Origin: Thermocrinis albus DSM 14484
GTDB taxonomy: Bacteria; Aquificota; Aquificia; Aquificales; Aquificaceae
Direction of reading: 5' to 3'
DNA: 64,000 nucleotides
Assembly: GCF_000025605.1 (NCBI RefSeq)
Contig: NC_013894.1
Location: 1,225,529 to 1,289,528, forward strand
The translations under genes and the position numbers were made by a program. Below, in pieces: positions 5,049-18,826 of this stretch. The notes under the pieces are model-generated. The model saw only the letters and a list, made by a program, of their open reading frames with translations. It was not told where the DNA came from and did not search any database. Within the stretch, counting starts at the first letter, position 1. Each line of letters begins with the position of its first letter.

Positions 5049-6332
5049 ATGAAGCGCTGGATAGGTGGTATTATACCACTACTGCTGCCCTTAAGTTTTG
5101 CACTGGCAGAGGGTACACAACCCAAACTGGACACTGGTGACACGGCATGGATGCTCATGTCCACAGCTCTTGTCATGCTTATGACACTGCCTGGTCTTGC
5201 CATCTTTTACGGTGGCCTGTCCAAAAACAAGGACACCCTTAACACAATAGGCATGTCCTTTTTGGCATACTGTGTGGTCTCTTTCCTATGGGTGGTCTAC
5301 GGTTATTCTCTTGCCTTTGGAGAAGATATAGGTGGTATCATAGGTTCCGCCTCCAAGGTTTTCCTCAACGGCGTTACTGTGAACAGCTTACAGGGAACTA
5401 TACCGGAGATGCTCTTTGTGGCTTTTCAACTCACCTTTGCCGCCATCACGGTGGCTCTCATAAGTGGTTCTTACATAGAGAGGATGAAGTTTTCGGCGTG
5501 GTTGGTATTCAGTATTCTGTGGATGAGTCTTGTCTATGTACCTGTGGCCCACTGGGTATGGGGTGGTGGTTTTCTGGCTAAACTGGGTGCTTTGGACTTT
5601 GCGGGTGGTACCGTTGTACACATAAACGCAGGTATAGCCGGTCTCATAGGAGCTTTACTGCTGGGTAAAAGGAAGGACACCTCCCTTATTCCCAGTAACC
5701 TTCCTCTGGTGGTGATAGGGGCAGGTCTTCTGTGGTTCGGATGGTTCGGTTTCAATGCGGGATCTGCGGTAGGTGCTAACGGGTTGGCTGCTGCGGCCTT
5801 TCTCAACACCAACACAGCAACCGCTGTGGCTGCTCTCGCGTGGATGTTCACTGAATGGCTACATGCCAAAAAACCCACCGTCTTGGGACTGGCTTCAGGT
5901 GCCGTGGCCGGTCTTGTAGCCATAACTCCCGCAGCAGGTTTCGTCAACATATACGGCGCTATTGTGATAGGAGCTCTCGCAGGTATACTGCCCTACTTTG
6001 CCGTAGCGATGCTGAAACCAAAGCTGGGTTACGACGATGCCTTAGATGTGTTTGGTATTCACGGTGTGGCTGGAATTCTGGGAGCTATACTGACAGGTGT
6101 GTTTGCAGATCCCACCATAAACCAAGCTGGCAAGGGACTGCTTTACGGTAATCCCTCCCAGTTAACGGTACAGCTTATCAGTGTGGGGGTCGTGATAGTG
6201 TACGATGCCGTCATGACCGCCATAATCCTCTTTATAACCAAAGCGTTGGTGGGTCTTAGGGTCTTGCCAGAAGAAGAGATAACGGGACTGGACAGATCCC
6301 AGCACGGAGAGAGCGCCTACAACATCACATAA
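5049..6332 (+). CDS. amtB: Ammonium transporter
   Basis: A 427-residue Amt/Rh-family channel of the inner membrane with an N-terminal signal sequence (about residues 1-21) and eleven membrane helices. The twin pore histidines lie in [10 protein letters not shown] and [11 protein letters not shown]. Linkage to glnB and glnA is classical, because PII can block the channel when nitrogen is plentiful. ATG 5049 follows GAGGAGGT; a GTG sits one codon upstream. Confidence 0.97.
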
Positions 6333-6345
6333 GGAGGTGTGTACC

Positions 6346-7401
6346 ATGAAGAAGTACCTACTGCTGACAGCTCTCACTGGCTGTGTCTTTCAGGCAAGCG
6401 CTTTGGAACTGAAGACAGACTTCATGGGCTCCATCAACGTAAACGGTGCCCTCACAGGCTACATCCTCTACAGTAACAACAAAACCGACAACAAAAAGAC
6501 ACGTTACGACGTAGGATCCGCCATAATCCAGATATCAAAACCTGCGGAACCTTGGGGTTTTAACCTGATGGGTGGGGCCTACAGCCTGCCCGTTGTGGGT
6601 GTAGGTCTTTCTAAGACCGCTACCTATACTGATCTCTACAGTGCACTACCTGTTGCTTACTTAGAGCTGACTCCCGTTAAGGGGCTCTCCATAAAGGCAG
6701 GTAGACTTCCTACCATAATAGGGTACGAGTCTGCCTTTACTTATCTTAACAACTACATTCAGAGAGGTCTTGTATGGAATATGCAACCTGTTTTCCACCA
6801 GGGTGTCAGGGTAAGCTATTCTACAGATCTGTTAGGTGTAACCTTAGGTGTCAACGATGGCTTTTTCACCGCCTCCACCGCGCATGCTAAAGCCGCTCTT
6901 GAAGGAAGCATAGCACTAACACCCGTGAAGGACGGTTCCATAGCCTTTAACTTTCTTATACCCTCCAAGAGTTCAAGACCCAACAACACAGCCGCGCCGG
7001 CCAACAAGAGGGAGTATAACCTGGTTGCATCTTATTCCATAGGTAACTTAACAGCTGCGGTGGATGCCCTGTATGTGGAGGCTCCTGCAGACTCAGAGGC
7101 CCAAGTACCTTCAAAGGCCAAAGCGAGTGGAGTTGCTCTACACTTAGCTTACAATCTGAAACCCTTTAAAGTGGCCGGTAGGATAGAGTACGTCAAAGAT
7201 AACTCGGACGTAGGAGGAATAGACCTCGTAGGTCTTGGAGATGGAAACAAGGCATGGACATTCACTCTGACACCCTCCTACAGTAAAGGCCCTCTCTTCG
7301 TAAGAGGTGAGCTGTCCTATGTGGCTGCCGACAGGCCTTTTACTTCCAACAGTAAAAAGAACCAGACCAGACTGGGTGTAGAGGTGGGTTTCCTCTTCTG
7401 A
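6346..7401 (+). CDS. Outer-membrane beta-barrel porin (BBP2-like)
   Basis: A 351-residue exported protein with a cleavable signal (MKKYLLLTALTGCVFQASA). The body is rich in alternating beta-strand sequence and contains GRLPTIIGYES followed by a QGVRVSYS strand, a pattern of the OmpL-like beta-barrel porin-2 family. The last residue is Phe, as usual for outer-membrane proteins. It follows amtB by 13 bases with an AAGGAGG ribosome-binding site, so it may supply an outer-membrane pore for ammonium or other nitrogen compounds. Specificity is inference from context. Confidence 0.75.
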   Translation: MKKYLLLTALTGCVFQASALELKTDFMGSINVNGALTGYILYSNNKTDNKKTRYDVGSAIIQISKPAEPWGFNLMGGAYSLPVVGVGLSKTATYTDLYSALPVAYLELTPVKGLSIKAGRLPTIIGYESAFTYLNNYIQRGLVWNMQPVFHQGVRVSYSTDLLGVTLGVNDGFFTASTAHAKAALEGSIALTPVKDGSIAFNFLIPSKSSRPNNTAAPANKREYNLVASYSIGNLTAAVDALYVEAPADSEAQVPSKAKASGVALHLAYNLKPFKVAGRIEYVKDNSDVGGIDLVGLGDGNKAWTFTLTPSYSKGPLFVRGELSYVAADRPFTSNSKKNQTRLGVEVGFLF

Positions 7402-8156
7402 TGCCAAAGGCTGTTCTTTTAGATATAGATGGAGTGCTCATGGTGGGGGGTAGCCCTCTTCCGGGGGCTCCCCTCATTTTGGAAAAGCTAAAGGAACGCT
7501 TTAAGATAGCTCTTGTCAGTAACATCACACGTTCATCCTTTTCACAAACCTTGGAGAAGTTAAGAGGCGCGGGTTTCCATATAGGAGAAGAAGAGTTGTT
7601 CACACCTATCAAAGTGGCGGTAGACTACATAAAGACTGTGGGGGGTAAGGTGTTTGCTTTGACCACCGAGGAAGCTAAGGAAGATCTCAGAGAACTGGAG
7701 GGTGAACCTGTGACCCATGTACTGGTGGGTGATGCTTATACTAACTTTACCTACCATGCGCTCAACAAGGCTTTTAGATACCTTATAAAAGGTGCACGGC
7801 TCGTAGCGTTGGCCGAAAACAGGTACTTTAAGGATAAAGATGGGGAGCTTTCCCTAGACGCAGGTCCTTTCGTAAGAGCCCTTGAGTACGCCTCAGGACA
7901 AAGAGCCACTCTGTTGGGAAAACCTTCACCTACCTTTTTCTTAAAGGTTTTAGAAAAACTGGGTGTGAGCGCTGAGGAGGCTGTTATGGTAGGGGACGAC
8001 ATAGAGGCTGACGTGTTGGGTGCGCAGAGGGTGGGCATGAAGAGTGTTTTGGTAAAGACGGGAAAGTTCAGGGAGGAGGATCTACAGAAGTGTATAATAC
8101 CCCACTTAGTTATCCCAGACGTAACGCATCTTCTGGATGCTGTTGAGTATCTTTAA
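7401..8156 (+). CDS. HAD-family hydrolase (NagD/LHPP-like subfamily IIA)
   Basis: A 251-residue phosphatase-like protein. Motif I is LDIDGVL (D8, D10), motif II is the SN in ALVSNITR, and motif IV is VGDDIEAD in the C-terminal third; the cap between them is of the NagD/LHPP kind. Its ATG overlaps the porin stop (TGATG). The 3' end overlaps the convergent cobA gene by 47 bp. The natural substrate is unknown. Confidence 0.8.
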   Translation: MPKAVLLDIDGVLMVGGSPLPGAPLILEKLKERFKIALVSNITRSSFSQTLEKLRGAGFHIGEEELFTPIKVAVDYIKTVGGKVFALTTEEAKEDLRELEGEPVTHVLVGDAYTNFTYHALNKAFRYLIKGARLVALAENRYFKDKDGELSLDAGPFVRALEYASGQRATLLGKPSPTFFLKVLEKLGVSAEEAVMVGDDIEADVLGAQRVGMKSVLVKTGKFREEDLQKCIIPHLVIPDVTHLLDAVEYL

Positions 8157-8862
8157 GTTTTTTGTATAGTTCCACCACTTTACCCACCACCAGCAACGCA
8201 GGAGGTTCCACAGGTGGTGGATCACTGGCCAACCTACCTAAACTGGTCACCACAACCCTCTGTTTGGATGTGCATCCCCTCTCCACAAAGGCCACGGGTT
8301 CTTCAGCATCCCTCCCCAACTCCAACAGCTTCCTACCTATCTCCTGCCTCTTACCCACACCCATCACCACCACCAGAGTATCCACGTACCTGCTCAGCTC
8401 CCACCTCACACCGTAACAACCTTCCCCCTCGTGCCCAGTTACCACTCCAAAGGAGGAAGAAACACCCCTCATGGTGAGGGGTATCCCTACGTACGTAGGT
8501 ACACCAGTCACCGAACTGACACCAGGAACCACCTCAAACTCAACACCATTTTGAGCCAGATAGAGCGCTTCCTCCGCACCCCTTCCAAACACGAAAGGAT
8601 CCCCTCCCTTCAGTCTCACCACCCTTCTGTAAACTTTAGAAAGTTCCACCAACATCCTGTTGATACTGTCCTGTGGTGTGTGTTTACCCTCTTCCTTCCC
8701 TACGTAGATAATCTCACAGTCGGGTCTTGCCAACTGGAGTATGTCCTCACTGACCAATCTGTCGTAGAGGATAACATCCGCTTCCCTTATTATCCTCACA
8801 GCCTTTAACGTAAGAAGTTCCACATCTCCAGGTCCTGCTCCCACTATGTAGACTTTACCCAC
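8110..8862 (-). CDS. cobA: Uroporphyrinogen-III C-methyltransferase (SUMT)
   Basis: A 250-residue SAM-dependent enzyme that methylates uroporphyrinogen III to precorrin-2, the first step to siroheme. VGAGPGD at the N-terminus, RLKGGDPFVFGRG and VPGVSS-VPTYVGIPLT are family signatures. GTG 8862 sits behind AAGGG at good spacing; a TTG two codons upstream is possible. It is last in the nitrate operon, fitting supply of siroheme for the divergent nitrite reductase. No dehydrogenase/chelatase partner is in the window. Confidence 0.93.
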   Translation of the reverse strand: MGKVYIVGAGPGDVELLTLKAVRIIREADVILYDRLVSEDILQLARPDCEIIYVGKEEGKHTPQDSINRMLVELSKVYRRVVRLKGGDPFVFGRGAEEALYLAQNGVEFEVVPGVSSVTGVPTYVGIPLTMRGVSSSFGVVTGHEGEGCYGVRWELSRYVDTLVVVMGVGKRQEIGRKLLELGRDAEEPVAFVERGCTSKQRVVVTSLGRLASDPPPVEPPALLVVGKVVELYKKLKDTQQHPEDALRLG

Positions 8863-9607
8863 GGTCAAGACCCTTCAGTAACTCTCTCACAGCCAACGGG
8901 AATCTCTCCTTAGGTGGTTTTAACACTCTGAACACTCCCGCTTTATACAGCTCCTCCGCTGTCATGTGCCCCACCGCCACCACCAAAACCCTGTCTGTCA
9001 TAACATTCGCAAGATATCCTTCCATGCCGATATCCCTGGCCCTAGCAAAGGTGTACCTCACTTGGTAAGGAGATGTAAAGAGTACGCCGTGGTAGAAACC
9101 CTTCAGTAACTTTTCGATAAAAGCGTCCATCCTGTTGGTATCCATCTTATACCTGTAAACGGGAAGTACAAAGGCCCTACCCTTCAGTTCCTCTATCTCT
9201 TCACCGTAGGGTTGGACAGCGATCTTTACATCGTCCTTAAGGGTGTTAAGAAGATGGCTGGTACTTTCAGAGTAGGCAGCTATGGATAAGCCGTACTTGA
9301 GGAGTACACCCCTAGTTTTGTAACCTCTGCAGAGTATGACACAGTTCTTCAGGAGTTGGAGAAGGTGAGGTAGAACTCCGTATTCTTCAGCTACCTGAAA
9401 TAGTCTCTGGACTCCCTCACCCGTTGTGAAAAGGAAATGGCTTGGTTTTAAGGACAAAACCTCCTCCAGTTTTTTGGCTACTTCCTCTGCTGGCAGATAC
9501 TCTATTGTAACCACCTCTTCTACATAAGCCTCTATGTCAGTTTCCGCCATCATCTTAAGGAACTCCTCCTTCTTCCTGCTTCCGCACAGTGCAGCTCGTT
9601 TCTTCAT
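8855..9607 (-). CDS. hemD: Uroporphyrinogen-III synthase-like protein
   Basis: A 250-residue two-lobed protein of the HemD family, which closes hydroxymethylbilane to uroporphyrinogen III. HemD proteins have low sequence identity; the call rests on length, the alternating beta/alpha pattern, the LFTTGEGVQRL and VLFTSPYQVRY segments (matching the TSxxAV motifs), and its place directly before cobA. It overlaps nasA by 53 bases and cobA by a few, so the three are tightly coupled. Confidence 0.75.
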   Translation of the reverse strand: MKKRAALCGSRKKEEFLKMMAETDIEAYVEEVVTIEYLPAEEVAKKLEEVLSLKPSHFLFTTGEGVQRLFQVAEEYGVLPHLLQLLKNCVILCRGYKTRGVLLKYGLSIAAYSESTSHLLNTLKDDVKIAVQPYGEEIEELKGRAFVLPVYRYKMDTNRMDAFIEKLLKGFYHGVLFTSPYQVRYTFARARDIGMEGYLANVMTDRVLVVAVGHMTAEELYKAGVFRVLKPPKERFPLAVRELLKGLDRG

Positions 9608-12376: not shown

Positions 12377-13203
12377 GCCTGAAACCTCCTTTGAAGTTTA
12401 CCGAACACACTGTCCAGTACAAGGCCAACGATTCCTATGATCAGTAGAGCTGATATAACCTTCCTTAGGTCAAGGGCGTTCCACGAATCCCAGATGTAAA
12501 AACCTATCCCCGTCCCCCCAGCCAACATTTCGGCAGCTACTATAACCATCCAAGCTATACCCATACTTATCTTTAGACCTGTCAGTATGAAGGGTAAGGT
12601 ATAAGGTAACACTACGTATCTCAGGTAAGTCCACCTGGAGAAACCAAAGACCTTCGCCACGTTCCTGTAGTCTTCTGGTACAGAGGATGCGCCGTAGGCA
12701 GTGTTTATCAGCGTAGGCCAAAGGGAGGTGATAGCTATGGTAAACACAGCCGCCTGGTGCGATGCTTGGAAGATGGCGAGTCCTATGGGAAACCAAGCGA
12801 GGGGTGACACAGGCCTAAGGGTCTGTATGATGGGGTTGAACATGGTCTGTAGCTTGTTCCACATACCTAAGAACAATCCAAGAGGCACCGCCACCGAACT
12901 TCCTATAAGAAAACCCAAGAACACCCTCTTGAGGGAGTAAAGAAGTTGCCACCCTATGCCCTTATCGTTGGGTCCGTTGTCGTAAAAGGGATCCCTTAAA
13001 AGGTGATAAAGGGTCTGCAGGGTGGTAAAAGGTCCTGGGAGGTCCCTGACCACGAAGTGCGACAGGAACCACCACAGGATAAGGAAGGTAAACACGCCCA
13101 GCACGTAGAGGAACGCCTTCTGTAAACCATCGAAAACAACTCTAAACATAGGCTTTCCACTCCACCCAGTGCTCAGTTTTACCCTTCCTGTTTCCATAAT
13201 CAC
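12373..13203 (-). CDS. nrtB: Nitrate/nitrite ABC transporter permease
   Basis: A 276-residue inner-membrane permease with about six helices. The EAA-like loop that contacts the ATPase is visible near YRNVAKVFGFSRWTYLRYVVLP, split here into YRNVAKVFGFS and its continuation. It overlaps nrtA and nrtD by four bases each. Family members carry nitrate, sulfonates or taurine; nitrate is inferred from nasA and the NrtA homologue. Confidence 0.9.
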   Translation of the reverse strand: MIMETGRVKLSTGWSGKPMFRVVFDGLQKAFLYVLGVFTFLILWWFLSHFVVRDLPGPFTTLQTLYHLLRDPFYDNGPNDKGIGWQLLYSLKRVFLGFLIGSSVAVPLGLFLGMWNKLQTMFNPIIQTLRPVSPLAWFPIGLAIFQASHQAAVFTIAITSLWPTLINTAYGASSVPEDYRNVAKVFGFSRWTYLRYVVLPYTLPFILTGLKISMGIAWMVIVAAEMLAGGTGIGFYIWDSWNALDLRKVISALLIIGIVGLVLDSVFGKLQRRFQA

Positions 13204-14417
13204 ACCTCCCTTACCTTGTACTTTTTGATGGAACCCTCAGGATCATTGGGGTCAAACACCACACCATCTATGAAACCCTTAAGCGGTTTCATATCGTCTT
13301 TTGGAACAGGTATACCCATCTCCTGTGCTACCTTTACGTAAAAGTCCTGCATCACTATAGCATCTGCAACAGCTTTGTAGTTGATAGGTTCCTTCACCAT
13401 TCCCCATCTCCTGAACTGGGCTAAGAAGAAAATGGCGTGGGATTTCCTCGGAAAGGGTACCTCACCGTTTTTGAAGAAAAGCATGTAATCATCCTTGTAG
13501 ACATGCTTACCTATACCCAGATCGTAAACGCCCATAAGTCTGCTCTCTATGGCAGAGACAGGTGCGTTGACGTACTTCTGCTGACTCAATATCTTTGCCA
13601 ACTCCTTGCGGTTCCCCATATCGTCACACCATCTGGCAGCTTCCAGTACAGCCTTCATTATGGCCTTTACCTCTTCTGGATTTTGGCGCATAAACTCCCA
13701 GTTAAAGGCAAGTACCTTCTCAGGATGATGTTTCCATATATCCTGAGAAGCTATATGGGTGAAGCCCACGCCTTCCAACACCCCCACAGCGTTCCACGGT
13801 TCTCCTACACAATAGCCGTCCATCCTACCCACCTTCATGTTGGCTACCATCTGGGGAGGTGGGTTTGGGATCACCCTCACATCTCTGTTGGGATTTACAC
13901 CACACGCTCCTAACCAATACCTTAGCCATATATCGTGAGTTCCTCCCGGGAAGGTCATGGCGAAAGTGCATTCTCCTTCCTTTGCCTTTATCTCCTCTAT
14001 TGCGGCCTTCACTTTGTCCAGTTCCCTGAAACCTACCTTTCCCTTAAACTTGTTGGAAAGAGTTATACCTTGGCCGTTGAAGCTTAGCGTCATGGGGATC
14101 GGTATTATCTTGCCCTTCGGGCCTGATATACCCATGTAAACGGAGAGGGGTAGTGAAAAGAGAGTATGAGAAGCTTTCAGTTCCCCATTAAGCAACTTAT
14201 CCCTCACGTTGGGCCAACTGGCCTCCTTAGAAACCTCAACATCCACACCGTACTTTTTAAAGAACCCCAGTTCCTGTGCCACGACTACCGGAGCACAGTC
14301 CGTGAGAGGTATAAACCCTATCCTTATCTTGGTAGCACCACGGGATATGTAAGGACCTAATAGGGAAGCAGCAGTTCCGGCTAAGAAGCCTTTCAACACT
14401 TCTCTTCTGCTCGGCAT
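13200..14417 (-). CDS. nrtA: Nitrate-binding periplasmic protein (NrtA-like, Tat signal)
   Basis: A 405-residue solute-binding protein. The N-terminus SRREVLKGFLAG is a twin-arginine export signal with a hydrophobic stretch to about residue 26. The mature part has the NrtA-type RIGFIPLTDCAPVVVAQE opening, FPGGTHDIWLRYWL and MDGYCVGEPWNAVG, which are typical of nitrate-binding proteins. It would capture nitrate outside the membrane for NrtB/NrtD. It lies 14 bases after the cyanase-like gene. Confidence 0.92.
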   Translation of the reverse strand: MPSRREVLKGFLAGTAASLLGPYISRGATKIRIGFIPLTDCAPVVVAQELGFFKKYGVDVEVSKEASWPNVRDKLLNGELKASHTLFSLPLSVYMGISGPKGKIIPIPMTLSFNGQGITLSNKFKGKVGFRELDKVKAAIEEIKAKEGECTFAMTFPGGTHDIWLRYWLGACGVNPNRDVRVIPNPPPQMVANMKVGRMDGYCVGEPWNAVGVLEGVGFTHIASQDIWKHHPEKVLAFNWEFMRQNPEEVKAIMKAVLEAARWCDDMGNRKELAKILSQQKYVNAPVSAIESRLMGVYDLGIGKHVYKDDYMLFFKNGEVPFPRKSHAIFFLAQFRRWGMVKEPINYKAVADAIVMQDFYVKVAQEMGIPVPKDDMKPLKGFIDGVVFDPNDPEGSIKKYKVREV

Positions 14418-14431
14418 ACCTAAACCTCCTT

Positions 14432-14673
14432 TCAGAATTTTCTATACCTAAGCCATTTGCCGTTTATGGTAAGGAGCATGCGCTCTTGTCCGTCCTCTTC
14501 CACCTTCTGAAGATCCACCTTCATATCTATGGCACTCATGATGCCGTCACCAAACTTCTCGTGAGCTACATCGGCAAGGGCAGGTCCACGAGCTGCTTCG
14601 GCTTGTGTATAACCGTAAAACAACATGGCACAGTAAACTTCACTTCAGCAAGCTCCCGTATGTTTCTCCTCAT
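14432..14673 (-). pseudogene. Cyanase C-terminal-domain-like small gene, frameshifted
   Basis: The gene should start at ATG 14673, which overlaps the upstream PII stop (ATGA) and has GGGAGGTAAG in front. From there the frame ends after about 36 codons. A tandem GAAGT GAAGT (plus strand 14637-14646) shifts the frame; removing one copy gives a continuous 78-residue protein containing HEKFGDGIMSAID and ending LTINGKWLRYRKF, closely like the C-terminal part of cyanate hydratase CynS. The equivalents of cyanase Arg96 and Glu99 seem absent, while the Ser in GIMSAI is kept. Either a real 5-bp mutation, a slip-type switch, or a sequence error. Confidence 0.65.
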
Positions 14674-14993
14674 AATCTTACCTCCCTACTCTTGGTTCTT
14701 ATAGTCCACACTTCTTCCAGAGGACACACGAAGATCTTCCCATCCCCCACCATCCCTGTATGGGCATGTCTGCTTATCAAACTCACCACCTGCTGTACCT
14801 TATCGTCCTCCACCGCTACCATGAGAAGCACTTTTGCCACCTCGGGCCACCTTTTTTCTCCTACCTGTAACCCACCCTCCCTACCCCTCCCTACCACGTC
14901 TATAACTGTTATCCCTGTGAAGCCCTCTTTTTCTAAAGCCTCCATAACCTCATAAAGCAGCTCTGGCCTTATGACAGCCTTTATCATCTTCAT
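14670..14993 (-). CDS. PII-family protein, NifI1-like
   Basis: A 107-residue PII paralogue. It has IKAVIRPE at the start, GRGREGG in the T-loop base, TGMVGDGKIFV (B-loop) and a TIRT C-loop. The T-loop has no uridylylation tyrosine at the Y51 position and the VGEKRWPEVAKVLLMVAVED segment (about residues 44-63) resembles NifI1-type PII proteins. It forms a pair with the next upstream gene and is overlapped by four bases. It may regulate nitrate uptake or reduction; no nitrogenase genes are in the window. Confidence 0.85.
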   Translation of the reverse strand: MKMIKAVIRPELLYEVMEALEKEGFTGITVIDVVGRGREGGLQVGEKRWPEVAKVLLMVAVEDDKVQQVVSLISRHAHTGMVGDGKIFVCPLEEVWTIRTKSREVRL

Positions 14994-15280
14994 GACAAAC
15001 CCCTCACCACGAAGATCTTCCCATCACCGTAGTACCCCGTATGAGCAGATTCAACGACCTTCTCAATCACCTCTTGGTACAGGGTGTCCTCAACCCATGT
15101 TATGATCAGCGTTTTGGGAAGTAAAGATACGAGCAGTCCCTTTTTTGTTTTGTATCCTACCCCTCCCTCCTTCCCTCTTCCTTTCACCGTTTTTGATACG
15201 TAGCTAAGTCCCATACTTGACAGAGTGTTTTTAACATCCCCAGCTTTTTCCCTTCTAACAATAATAAGAAGCTCCTTCAT
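14990..15280 (-). CDS. PII-family protein, NifI2-like
   Basis: A 96-residue PII-like protein, shorter than GlnB. It keeps GRGKEGG and the TGYYGDGKIFV B-loop but lacks the C-terminal extension and T-loop tyrosine. Its sequence is of the NifI2 kind and it sits directly before the NifI1-like gene, so the two probably form a mixed complex. GGGGG serves as ribosome-binding site. Target unknown. Confidence 0.8.
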   Translation of the reverse strand: MKELLIIVRREKAGDVKNTLSSMGLSYVSKTVKGRGKEGGVGYKTKKGLLVSLLPKTLIITWVEDTLYQEVIEKVVESAHTGYYGDGKIFVVRGLS

Positions 15281-15298: not shown

Positions 15299-15709
15299 TT
15301 ATTGGTTCAAACAGGCATAAAGCTTTTCTTCCCTTTTAATGAGATTATCGGCGAGAAGGTGGTAAACTTCTTTCCACGCTTCTATGATTTCATCTTCCAC
15401 TCCAAATTCAACCATAGCTTTATAGAGAGCCTTCCAAACTTTTTCGTAATGTTCAGGTTTTACACCAGCCCTCACATGAGATAGTGCTATCTTCTTAAAG
15501 GAAGTTTCTAATACATCAAGTCTTTCTAAGTTATGAGCGACCGCAAGAAGTGCACCTGCAAGCTTTTTTGAATTGTCACCTTCAAACATGTTTCTAAGTT
15601 CAGGATTTTCCTCAAAGAGGATCTCATACATCCTGGATGTTAGTTCCTCACCAGAAGACGAAAGAAAAGGTATACTCCTCTTGATCCTTAACTTCACTTG
15701 TTCATCCAT
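15299..15709 (-). CDS. Single-domain globin (thermoglobin/VHb-like)
   Basis: A 136-residue globin fold without a reductase domain, like the thermoglobin of Aquifex and Vitreoscilla haemoglobin. The proximal haem histidine is in IALSHVRAGV, followed by the HYEKV pattern typical of flavohaemoglobin-type globins. It has a strong GGAGGTG ribosome-binding site and is first in the nitrate operon behind a sigma-54 promoter, so it may remove NO or bind oxygen during nitrate/nitrite use. Role is inference from context. Confidence 0.88.
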   Translation of the reverse strand: MDEQVKLRIKRSIPFLSSSGEELTSRMYEILFEENPELRNMFEGDNSKKLAGALLAVAHNLERLDVLETSFKKIALSHVRAGVKPEHYEKVWKALYKAMVEFGVEDEIIEAWKEVYHLLADNLIKREEKLYACLNQ

Positions 15710-15752: not shown

Positions 15753-15815
15753 TTCACCCTTAACGAAAAATCTACAGAAACGCAGACTAACCTGTGGAGG
15801 TGTTTCTACTTTGTA

Positions 15816-15849
15816 GTAAATTTGTTAACATTTTTGTAAGTTTGTTAAC
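15816..15849. promoter_or_regulatory. Shared enhancer motif pair between divergent sigma-54 promoters
   Basis: GTAAATTTGTTAAC (15816-15829) and GTAAGTTTGTTAAC (15836-15849) are repeated exactly 20 bp apart, two helical turns. Their centres lie about 95 and 115 bp before the nirBA start and 97 and 117 bp before the globin start. The same motif occurs upstream of glnB. Confidence 0.6.
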
Positions 15850-15910
15850 AATACTTCTACACACACCCTTTTCGGTCCATACATCATCTACACACCTGGA
15901 AGAGGGTATA

Positions 15911-15927
15911 TTGGCACACTTTTTGCA
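15911..15927 (+). promoter_or_regulatory. Sigma-54 promoter of nirBA fusion
   Basis: TTGGCACACTTTTTGCA is close to the sigma-54 consensus; GG (15913-15914) and GC (15925-15926) are ten bases apart. Start expected near 15938, with AGGAGGA ribosome-binding site following. Confidence 0.85.
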
Positions 15928-15952
15928 AAACAAGAAGGTAGGAGGATTAGGG

Positions 15953-18826
15953 ATGAGAGTGGCTGTGATAGGAGGAGGAATCGCCGGCAGTGCTATGGTG
16001 GAGGAGCTCCTCCGTCTTGATCCAGATACAGAAATACATCTCTTCTGTGGGGAAGGAGTTCTACCTTACAACAGGGTGCAGTTGGCGGATGTGCTTTCTG
16101 GAAAGAAACTCTTTACCCAGCTTGTGTTACACAGCTGGCAGTACTATGAAGAAAAAGGTGTGCGCTTACACTTTCAAAAGGTGGACAGGTTATATCCCCA
16201 CAGGAGGTTGCTGATCACCGAGAGGGGAGACGTTTACTCCTATGACAGAGCTGTTATAGCCACGGGTAGCGTGCCACTCCTTCCTCCCATCAAAAAAACA
16301 CACCTGAAGGGTGTTTTTGTTCTGCGAACAATAAAGGACGTGTACGGTATGCTGGATATGCTACCCCTGTCCCGTAGAGTTGTTGTGATAGGTGGAGGGC
16401 TGCTGGGAGTGGAGAGTGCCAGAGCAATCAGGGACTCAGGTGTTGATGTGTTTCTGATCCACATTATGGACACCCTCATGGAGCAATGGATAGATAGGCA
16501 ATGTAGCCAGCTGGTAAAAAATAAGCTGGAACGTCTAGGTATAAAAGTACTCCTTTCAAAAAGAGTGGAGGAACTGTTGGGAGAAAAAAGAGTTGAAGGT
16601 GTGCGCTTCTCCGATGGAGATACTTTAGAGGCGGATATGGTCTTACTGGCTACAGGGATAAGAGCCAACACGGATCTTGCGGTAAGATCAGGATTGAAGG
16701 TAGAAAGAGGAATCTTGGTGGACGACTATCTGGAAACATCGTCACAGTATGTATATGCTGTGGGAGAGTGTGCCCAGCACAGGGGCAAGATTTATGGTAT
16801 CGTAGCTCCTATCTTAGAACAGGTAAAGGTGTGTGCTAAGAACATCATCTACGGGAACGTGGAGAGATACGAAGGATCACCCTCTTACACTATTCTCAAA
16901 GTTCCTGAGATCCGTCTTGTATCGGGAGGACGCGTACATGAGGAGGAGGGGGATGAGGTGTTCGTGTATATGGATAACGATAACTACAGGAAGGTGGTGC
17001 TGAGGGAAGGTAAGCTGGAGGGCTTCGTACTTCTAGGAAACTTCTCAGGCTTATCCCAACTTCTTGATGTCATGAAGAAAGGTGTCAACGCCAAACACCT
17101 CTTTCCCAACATTCTCCTGTCGGATATACTCCGTCCATCTACCACGGAAGATCTAGTGGGAAAGACGGTGTGCAACTGTAACGCCGTCAGCTACGAAGAT
17201 ATTCTCAATGCCATAAAGTTGGGAGCCAAGTCTCTGGAAGATATACAGAGGATGACGCGCGCATCCACATCCTGTGGGAGCTGTATCCCTTTGGTGGAGA
17301 ACATATTGCAGCAGCATGTAAAGATTCAAAGAAAGGTGAACCGTGTTGAAGAGTACAAGAGAGAACGTCACCCCTTCTCGGTAAACCTCAGAAAAAGGCT
17401 GGAGGAATGGGCAGAGGAAGGGGATTGGCAAAAGGTACCTGAGGAAGACAGGGAGTACGGGTTGAAATGGTACGGAGTTTTTTACAGAAAGGCAACGCCT
17501 GGTTATTTCATGGTAAGGATCAGGATAACCAACGGTGTGCTTACAGCCCAACAAGCGAAGGTGATAGCTCATCTTGCCAAGAAGTTTGGGAGAAACGAAG
17601 TAGATATAACTTCTAGACAGCAGATACAGCTTCGTTGGATAGAACTAAGATACCTTCCGGAGGTTTTAGCAGCGCTGGAAACGGTAGGACTAACCACCCT
17701 TCAAACAGGAATGGATAATGTAAGAAACATCACCGGGGATCCCCTCTCAGGACTACATGAGGAGAATGTTATTGACACAGTATTCATAACCAGAAGAATG
17801 ACGGAGATATTTTTAGGTAAAATTCAGTACGCTAATCTTCCGAGAAAGTTCAACGTAGGTGTTCTTGGCTCTATTCGTGATATGATAAACTGTAAATTCA
17901 ATGACCTTTGTTTTTATCTTGCAAAAAAGAATGGCAAATATGGCTTCAATGTGTATGCCGGTGGTAAAATGGGTTCCGGTGGACCAAATGAGGCATGGAA
18001 TTTAGACATATTCGTAGAACCTTACGACGCTATATGGATCTTAAAAGCAGTTATCGAAATATACAATGATCTCGGAAACAGAGAAGACAGGAGTAAAAAC
18101 AGGCTACATTTCCTCATAAGAGAACTGGGAGTTGAGGGGTTCAGAGCAGAGTTGGAAAAAAGAATGGTAAAGAAGTTACCTGCTGCAGGTGAAGATATGG
18201 TAAGATGGTGCGGTGAGCGTGAAGGACTTATAAGGTTAAGAAACGGTCTATACGCTGTGCCCCTCATAGTACCTGCGGGTATATTCACCGGCGACGCACT
18301 ACAGAGAGCTGCGTGGCTGGCACAGAAGTACGGTAGTGGGGAGCTACGACTGTCTACGTATCAGCGCCTCTTTATAGTGAACGTTCCCCAAGAGAATCTA
18401 AATCAGCTCCTCAGTGACCCGTTGTTGGACAAGTATCCTATATCTACGTCTCCCTTCTTCACTGGTCTCATAGCGTGTCAGGGAAGCAGGACATGTGCCT
18501 TTGGCGTAATAGAAAATAAACCAGACGCCTTGAGACTTGCTGATTATCTTAGCAGAAAATACAATACCAGTATCCCTATCAGGATGCATTGGTCCGGTTG
18601 TGCCAAGGGTTGTGGTCTCCATGGTGCAGGAGACATAGGCTTTGTGGGTACAAAGATGAAAGTAGATGGTGAGGTAAAGCTGGCTGTGGACGTCTTCTTA
18701 AGAGGTAAGAAGATAGACACGGTACCTTTGGATTCTTTAGAAGCATATGTGGAAAAACTTTTTGTGGATAACTTCCTGCAGGAGGTGAAGGATGAAGGTT
18801 CTGGCCATCCGGCATGTCAGAGCTGA
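15953..18826 (+). CDS. Fusion nitrite reductase: NAD(P)H/FAD reductase + BFD [2Fe-2S] + NirA-type siroheme domains
   Basis: A 957-residue protein. Residues 1-400 are a flavoprotein reductase with two GxGxxG nucleotide sites (IGGGIAG at 6-12, IGGGLLG at 146-152). A BFD-like [2Fe-2S] site follows (C407, C409, C441, C444). Residues 475-950 are a complete two-repeat NirA-type nitrite/sulfite reductase with siroheme-[4Fe-4S] ligands C842, C848, C883, C887. It should reduce nitrite to ammonium using NAD(P)H. I start at ATG 15953 behind AGGAGGA; the upstream open frame runs through the sigma-54 promoter. NirB normally has only one half-repeat pair, so the architecture is unusual. Confidence 0.9.
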   Translation: MRVAVIGGGIAGSAMVEELLRLDPDTEIHLFCGEGVLPYNRVQLADVLSGKKLFTQLVLHSWQYYEEKGVRLHFQKVDRLYPHRRLLITERGDVYSYDRAVIATGSVPLLPPIKKTHLKGVFVLRTIKDVYGMLDMLPLSRRVVVIGGGLLGVESARAIRDSGVDVFLIHIMDTLMEQWIDRQCSQLVKNKLERLGIKVLLSKRVEELLGEKRVEGVRFSDGDTLEADMVLLATGIRANTDLAVRSGLKVERGILVDDYLETSSQYVYAVGECAQHRGKIYGIVAPILEQVKVCAKNIIYGNVERYEGSPSYTILKVPEIRLVSGGRVHEEEGDEVFVYMDNDNYRKVVLREGKLEGFVLLGNFSGLSQLLDVMKKGVNAKHLFPNILLSDILRPSTTEDLVGKTVCNCNAVSYEDILNAIKLGAKSLEDIQRMTRASTSCGSCIPLVENILQQHVKIQRKVNRVEEYKRERHPFSVNLRKRLEEWAEEGDWQKVPEEDREYGLKWYGVFYRKATPGYFMVRIRITNGVLTAQQAKVIAHLAKKFGRNEVDITSRQQIQLRWIELRYLPEVLAALETVGLTTLQTGMDNVRNITGDPLSGLHEENVIDTVFITRRMTEIFLGKIQYANLPRKFNVGVLGSIRDMINCKFNDLCFYLAKKNGKYGFNVYAGGKMGSGGPNEAWNLDIFVEPYDAIWILKAVIEIYNDLGNREDRSKNRLHFLIRELGVEGFRAELEKRMVKKLPAAGEDMVRWCGEREGLIRLRNGLYAVPLIVPAGIFTGDALQRAAWLAQKYGSGELRLSTYQRLFIVNVPQENLNQLLSDPLLDKYPISTSPFFTGLIACQGSRTCAFGVIENKPDALRLADYLSRKYNTSIPIRMHWSGCAKGCGLHGAGDIGFVGTKMKVDGEVKLAVDVFLRGKKIDTVPLDSLEAYVEKLFVDNFLQEVKDEGSGHPACQS

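Follow-up and report, generated by a model that had tools for sequence, protein, structure and literature searches.

In the window, the whole 64,000-nucleotide stretch of Thermocrinis albus DNA that we analysed, a probable pseudogene of the cyanase gene cynS occupies positions 14432–14673 of the minus strand, running from what was presumably the ancestral start codon through to the stop codon; it is syntenic and homologous with the intact cynS genes of four related genomes (G001, G029, G039, and G047). Directly upstream is a gene for a P-II family protein (14670–14993, minus strand; PF00543), which also stands beside cynS in G001, G029, and G047. Directly downstream is a gene for an NrtA-type substrate-binding protein (13200–14417, minus strand; PF13379), which follows cynS in G047 and has its own strong ribosome-binding site here (AAAGGAGG).

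The presumed start codon, ATG 14673, overlaps the P-II stop codon as ATGA and is preceded by a strong ribosome-binding site (GGGAGGT), as the initial annotation had described. Its frame opens with ATG and about nine codons (MRRNIRELA; 14645–14673, minus strand), and stops after 35 codons, close to the 36 or so first estimated. The cyanase-matching frame, two bases on, encodes the cyanase C-terminus and runs uninterrupted from AGT 14644 until its stop codon at 14432. Its longest product would be 64 aa from ATG 14626, with about 70 CynS residues missing from the locus, and no evident ribosome-binding site precedes that codon. The leading and cyanase-matching frames part at TGAAGTGAAGT (14637–14647, minus strand), where a TGA blocks the downstream frame and where a GAAGT GAAGT repeat is found. 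Read with one repeat copy, the locus has a single open frame whose 78-residue product ends in the cyanase C-terminus, also as first described. Programmed −1 frameshifting was considered and rejected, as the slippery heptamer X XXY YYZ is absent from the overlap of the two frames.

We searched for PF02560 in 112 genomes of the order and found it in six. Four carry intact cynS genes of 147–159 aa (G001, G029, G039, and G047, the last with two copies), and the other two are G040, with a broken copy, and T. albus, with the fragment at this locus. Aligned to the intact CynS proteins, the T. albus locus falls into three blocks in the correct order: MRRNIRELA; SEVYCAMLFYGYTQAE; and GPALADVAHEKFGDG...YRKF. 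The first block is short and weakly similar to its counterparts (MTREEVRDLS in G029 and MRSDIGRLS in G001), and together with its position this is suggestive of the cynS 5′ end. The second (14597–14644, minus strand) is what is left of the N-terminal domain of CynS, S-E-V-Y-C-A-M-L-F-Y-G-Y-T-Q-A-E, within which 12 of the 13 residues of VYCAMLFYGYTQA are identical to G001 CynS. The N-terminal part of the protein had been thought missing altogether, and a piece of it persists. The third (14432–14587, minus strand) is the C-terminal domain.

Two deletions separate these blocks. Deletion 1 fuses the first nine or so codons to S-E-V-Y-C-A-M and measures 61–82 nt, depending on the relative compared (67 nt against G001); it breaks the frame, since the missing length is always 1 mod 3. 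Deletion 2, with its junction at approximately 14579–14596 (minus strand), amounts to 141 nt (47 codons) against four of the five homologues and 153 nt against G039, and is in frame. Judged from this alignment, the locus is a full-length cynS minus two internal segments and not the C-terminal mini-gene first proposed; a search of relatives for an intact mini-gene found none, the intact genes all being full-length cynS. Intact homologues in the same genomic slot keep the frame that is broken here, and such a disruption is what marks a cynS pseudogene. A conserved family of mini-cyanases was also considered and rejected, as the homologue loci that we fetched are nearly all full length; among the short loci inspected, L023 and L064 are contig ends and L038 is a metagenome copy with a frameshift.

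The homology to cyanase is far beyond chance: the remnant scores 70.4 bits against PF02560 (gathering cut-off 25; E = 1.1e-19), covering profile positions 19–69 of 69, with the start of the domain deleted. Against the NCBIfam cynS equivalog model TIGR00673 it reaches 81.8 bits, below the cut-off of 113.3, and it falls short of a full-length CynS, which has about 147–160 aa with an N-terminal helical and a C-terminal domain. The catalytic residues of CynS are Arg96, Glu99, and Ser122 in E. coli numbering; the C-terminal block of the E. coli sequence used for this numbering agrees with PDB chains over residues 101–155. Arg96 and Glu99 both fall inside the 47-codon deletion 2, and of the catalytic trio only the Ser122 equivalent is kept; as had been suspected, joining the frame would still not yield a cyanase. 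Furthermore, the remnant has Ala in place of Lys109, a residue found in every one of 86 homologues.

The repeat itself, GAAGTGAAGT on the minus strand (ACTTCACTTC on the plus strand), is found at 14637–14646, where the initial annotation placed it, and nowhere else in the window. Taken alone it is unremarkable and within chance expectation: chance predicts 0.14 occurrences of this 10-mer per window, 11 of 100 shuffles contained at least one, and perfect 5-bp tandem duplications number 75 in the window, or about 0.3 per 242 bp. It was first read as a tandem duplication that shifted the frame. Its position is exactly the join of deletion 1, and in the downstream frame it reads AGT GAA GTT, or S-E-V. 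The AGT agrees with a Ser conserved in all five of the intact Aquificaceae CynS aligned. These have S-P-V/I/L-Y at the site, and other homologues have S-E-V-Y/W, D-E-V-W, and similar, so that S-E-V is a normal CynS motif. A single deletion fusing ...CTTGCTGA to AGTGAAGTTTAC would yield the present sequence with no need of a duplication. Most simply, then, the repeat is probably the junction, or scar, of deletion 1. A different history, in which the two deletions first left a short in-frame cynS and a later 5-bp duplication of GAAGT broke its frame, would also end in a pseudogene. The repeat is perfect within an 11-bp span and one copy opens a 78-codon frame, as that history predicts. In addition, the residue before V-Y in Aquificaceae CynS is P and not E, so a CCN codon would have to change at two or more positions to give S-E-V. 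Against it, an extra event is needed, repeats of this kind are common in the window, this one sits precisely on the deletion join, and its AGT matches the conserved Ser in a motif that is normal elsewhere; we consider a later duplication possible but unlikely.

Two further explanations would leave a real protein at the locus. One is that a sequencing or assembly error has disrupted an intact gene, and 454 data are indeed prone to indel errors. A 5-bp difference outside a homopolymer is atypical for 454, however, and base-calling cannot produce a deletion of 141 nt or of 61–82 nt; with the repeat removed, the protein would still be without Arg96 and Glu99. The locus is sampled in one T. albus genome, that of strain HI 11/12T (DSM 14484), a finished chromosome of 1,500,577 bp built from 52.9x 454 and 298x Illumina data, for which an error rate of less than 1 in 100,000 is reported and 10 pseudogenes are annotated (PMC3035279). 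Given a finished genome with so low an error rate, we regard this explanation as scarcely credible. The other is that the 64-aa C-terminal cyanase-domain protein is still made from ATG 14626 and does something other than break down cyanate. Its frame is open, it keeps the block EKFGDGIMSAID, and its protein divergence does not exceed that of intact genes. But the start codon is without a ribosome-binding site, the invariant Lys is lost, the PF02560 domain start is deleted, and no family of short homologues turned up among the loci fetched. Continued production is improbable on this evidence, and a new role for such a short non-catalytic protein in the P-II/nitrate operon is very doubtful.

The comparison with intact genes thus argues that 14432–14673 (minus strand) is, very probably, an ordinary cynS pseudogene formed by two-deletion decay of a full-length gene. 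The ancestor would have carried a full-length cyanase gene between a P-II gene and nrtA in a nitrate-assimilation operon, and this lineage would have lost some 61–82 nt near the cynS 5′ end, breaking the frame, and 141 nt mid-gene, in frame, along with the catalytic Arg96/Glu99 segment. Translation initiated at ATG 14673 would yield 35 out-of-frame residues and then terminate. The flanking operon genes stay open. We infer the order of these events, as well as the absence of expression and function of the remnant. Counting against this reading, the C-terminal 51 codons have 78% identity to G001, are no more diverged in protein than intact homologues, and have a pN/pS of 0.16–0.31, like the flanking genes, in a comparison where dS is saturated, leaving pN and amino-acid identity as the usable measures. 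This therefore points to recent decay or to continuing selection on the C-terminal piece, and inactivation was probably recent relative to the split of these genera. A search of the T. albus genome for a second cyanase gave neither a profile match nor a second DNA copy; because there is no other cynS, the simplest reading is that cyanase activity has been lost.

The slot P-II/cynS/nrtA is common to the T. albus remnant and the intact G047 cynS, where the order is P-II, P-II, cynS, nrtA, nrtB, nrtD, nasA; in G029 it is globin, P-II, P-II, cynS, a narK-like gene, nasA. Two divergent tandem P-II genes stand in the T. albus operon (14670–14993 and 14990–15280, minus strand), and their G001 counterpart (L008, 10545–11162, plus strand) is a single 205-aa ORF that matches P-II twice, apparently a fusion of the tandem pair. 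Next to them is a globin of a single domain, akin to the globin domain of flavohemoproteins (15299–15709, minus strand), and a globin is beside the P-II pair in the nitrate operons of G029 and G039 as well. In one ORF (15794–18826, plus strand), a NirB-type FAD/NAD module (about residues 57–512) is fused to a NirA-type module (about 507–974) of the ferredoxin-nitrite-reductase type; ORFs of similar length in G001, G029, G039, G047, and G052 match this fusion over about 945 residues. In G047, a second cynS stands ahead of a diverged nrtABD-like ABC set (L011, 11911–15244, minus strand), perhaps as a dedicated cyanate (cynABD-S) cluster; the adjoining nitrate operon has a cynS of its own.

We also examined the cynS slot where the gene is missing or decayed. 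In G037 its place is taken by a different short gene that looks hemerythrin-like by eye. G052, the one sister genome of the same genus with nrtA, has no cynS beside that gene, and the other genomes of the genus have no cynS at E ≤ 0.001. The G040 cynS (L006; L012, about 6821–7250) has an in-frame TAG, a frameshift, and a scrambled 5′ part. It belongs to a decaying nitrate-assimilation cluster (L012, about 5383–9213) with nrtA in pieces and a broken nitrite reductase ORF, in which nasA and nrtBD were not seen. Loss of cynS from the nitrate operon has thus occurred more than once in the family.

The importance of the locus beyond annotation is small: a cyanate lyase annotation at this locus should be changed to pseudogene, and the T. 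albus genome should not be taken to encode cyanate use. Among the papers searched, none links cyanase with Thermocrinis. The locus is a clear case of cynS loss from the Aquificaceae nitrate-assimilation operon, and the remnant is not a new mini-enzyme. Like CynS (TIGR00673, PF02560; PDB 1DW9), it has the C-terminal 51 residues, Ser122 equivalent included, as well as a short N-terminal stretch, and its operon position is that of the CynS genes in related Aquificaceae. Unlike CynS, it has lost some 20–27 codons close to the 5′ end and another 47 from the middle, its frame is broken, and the equivalents of Arg96, Glu99, and Lys109 are absent. The decayed G040 gene resembles it as a non-functional member of the same family in the same operon, beside nrtA, but differs in that its damage is independent and nrtA is broken too.
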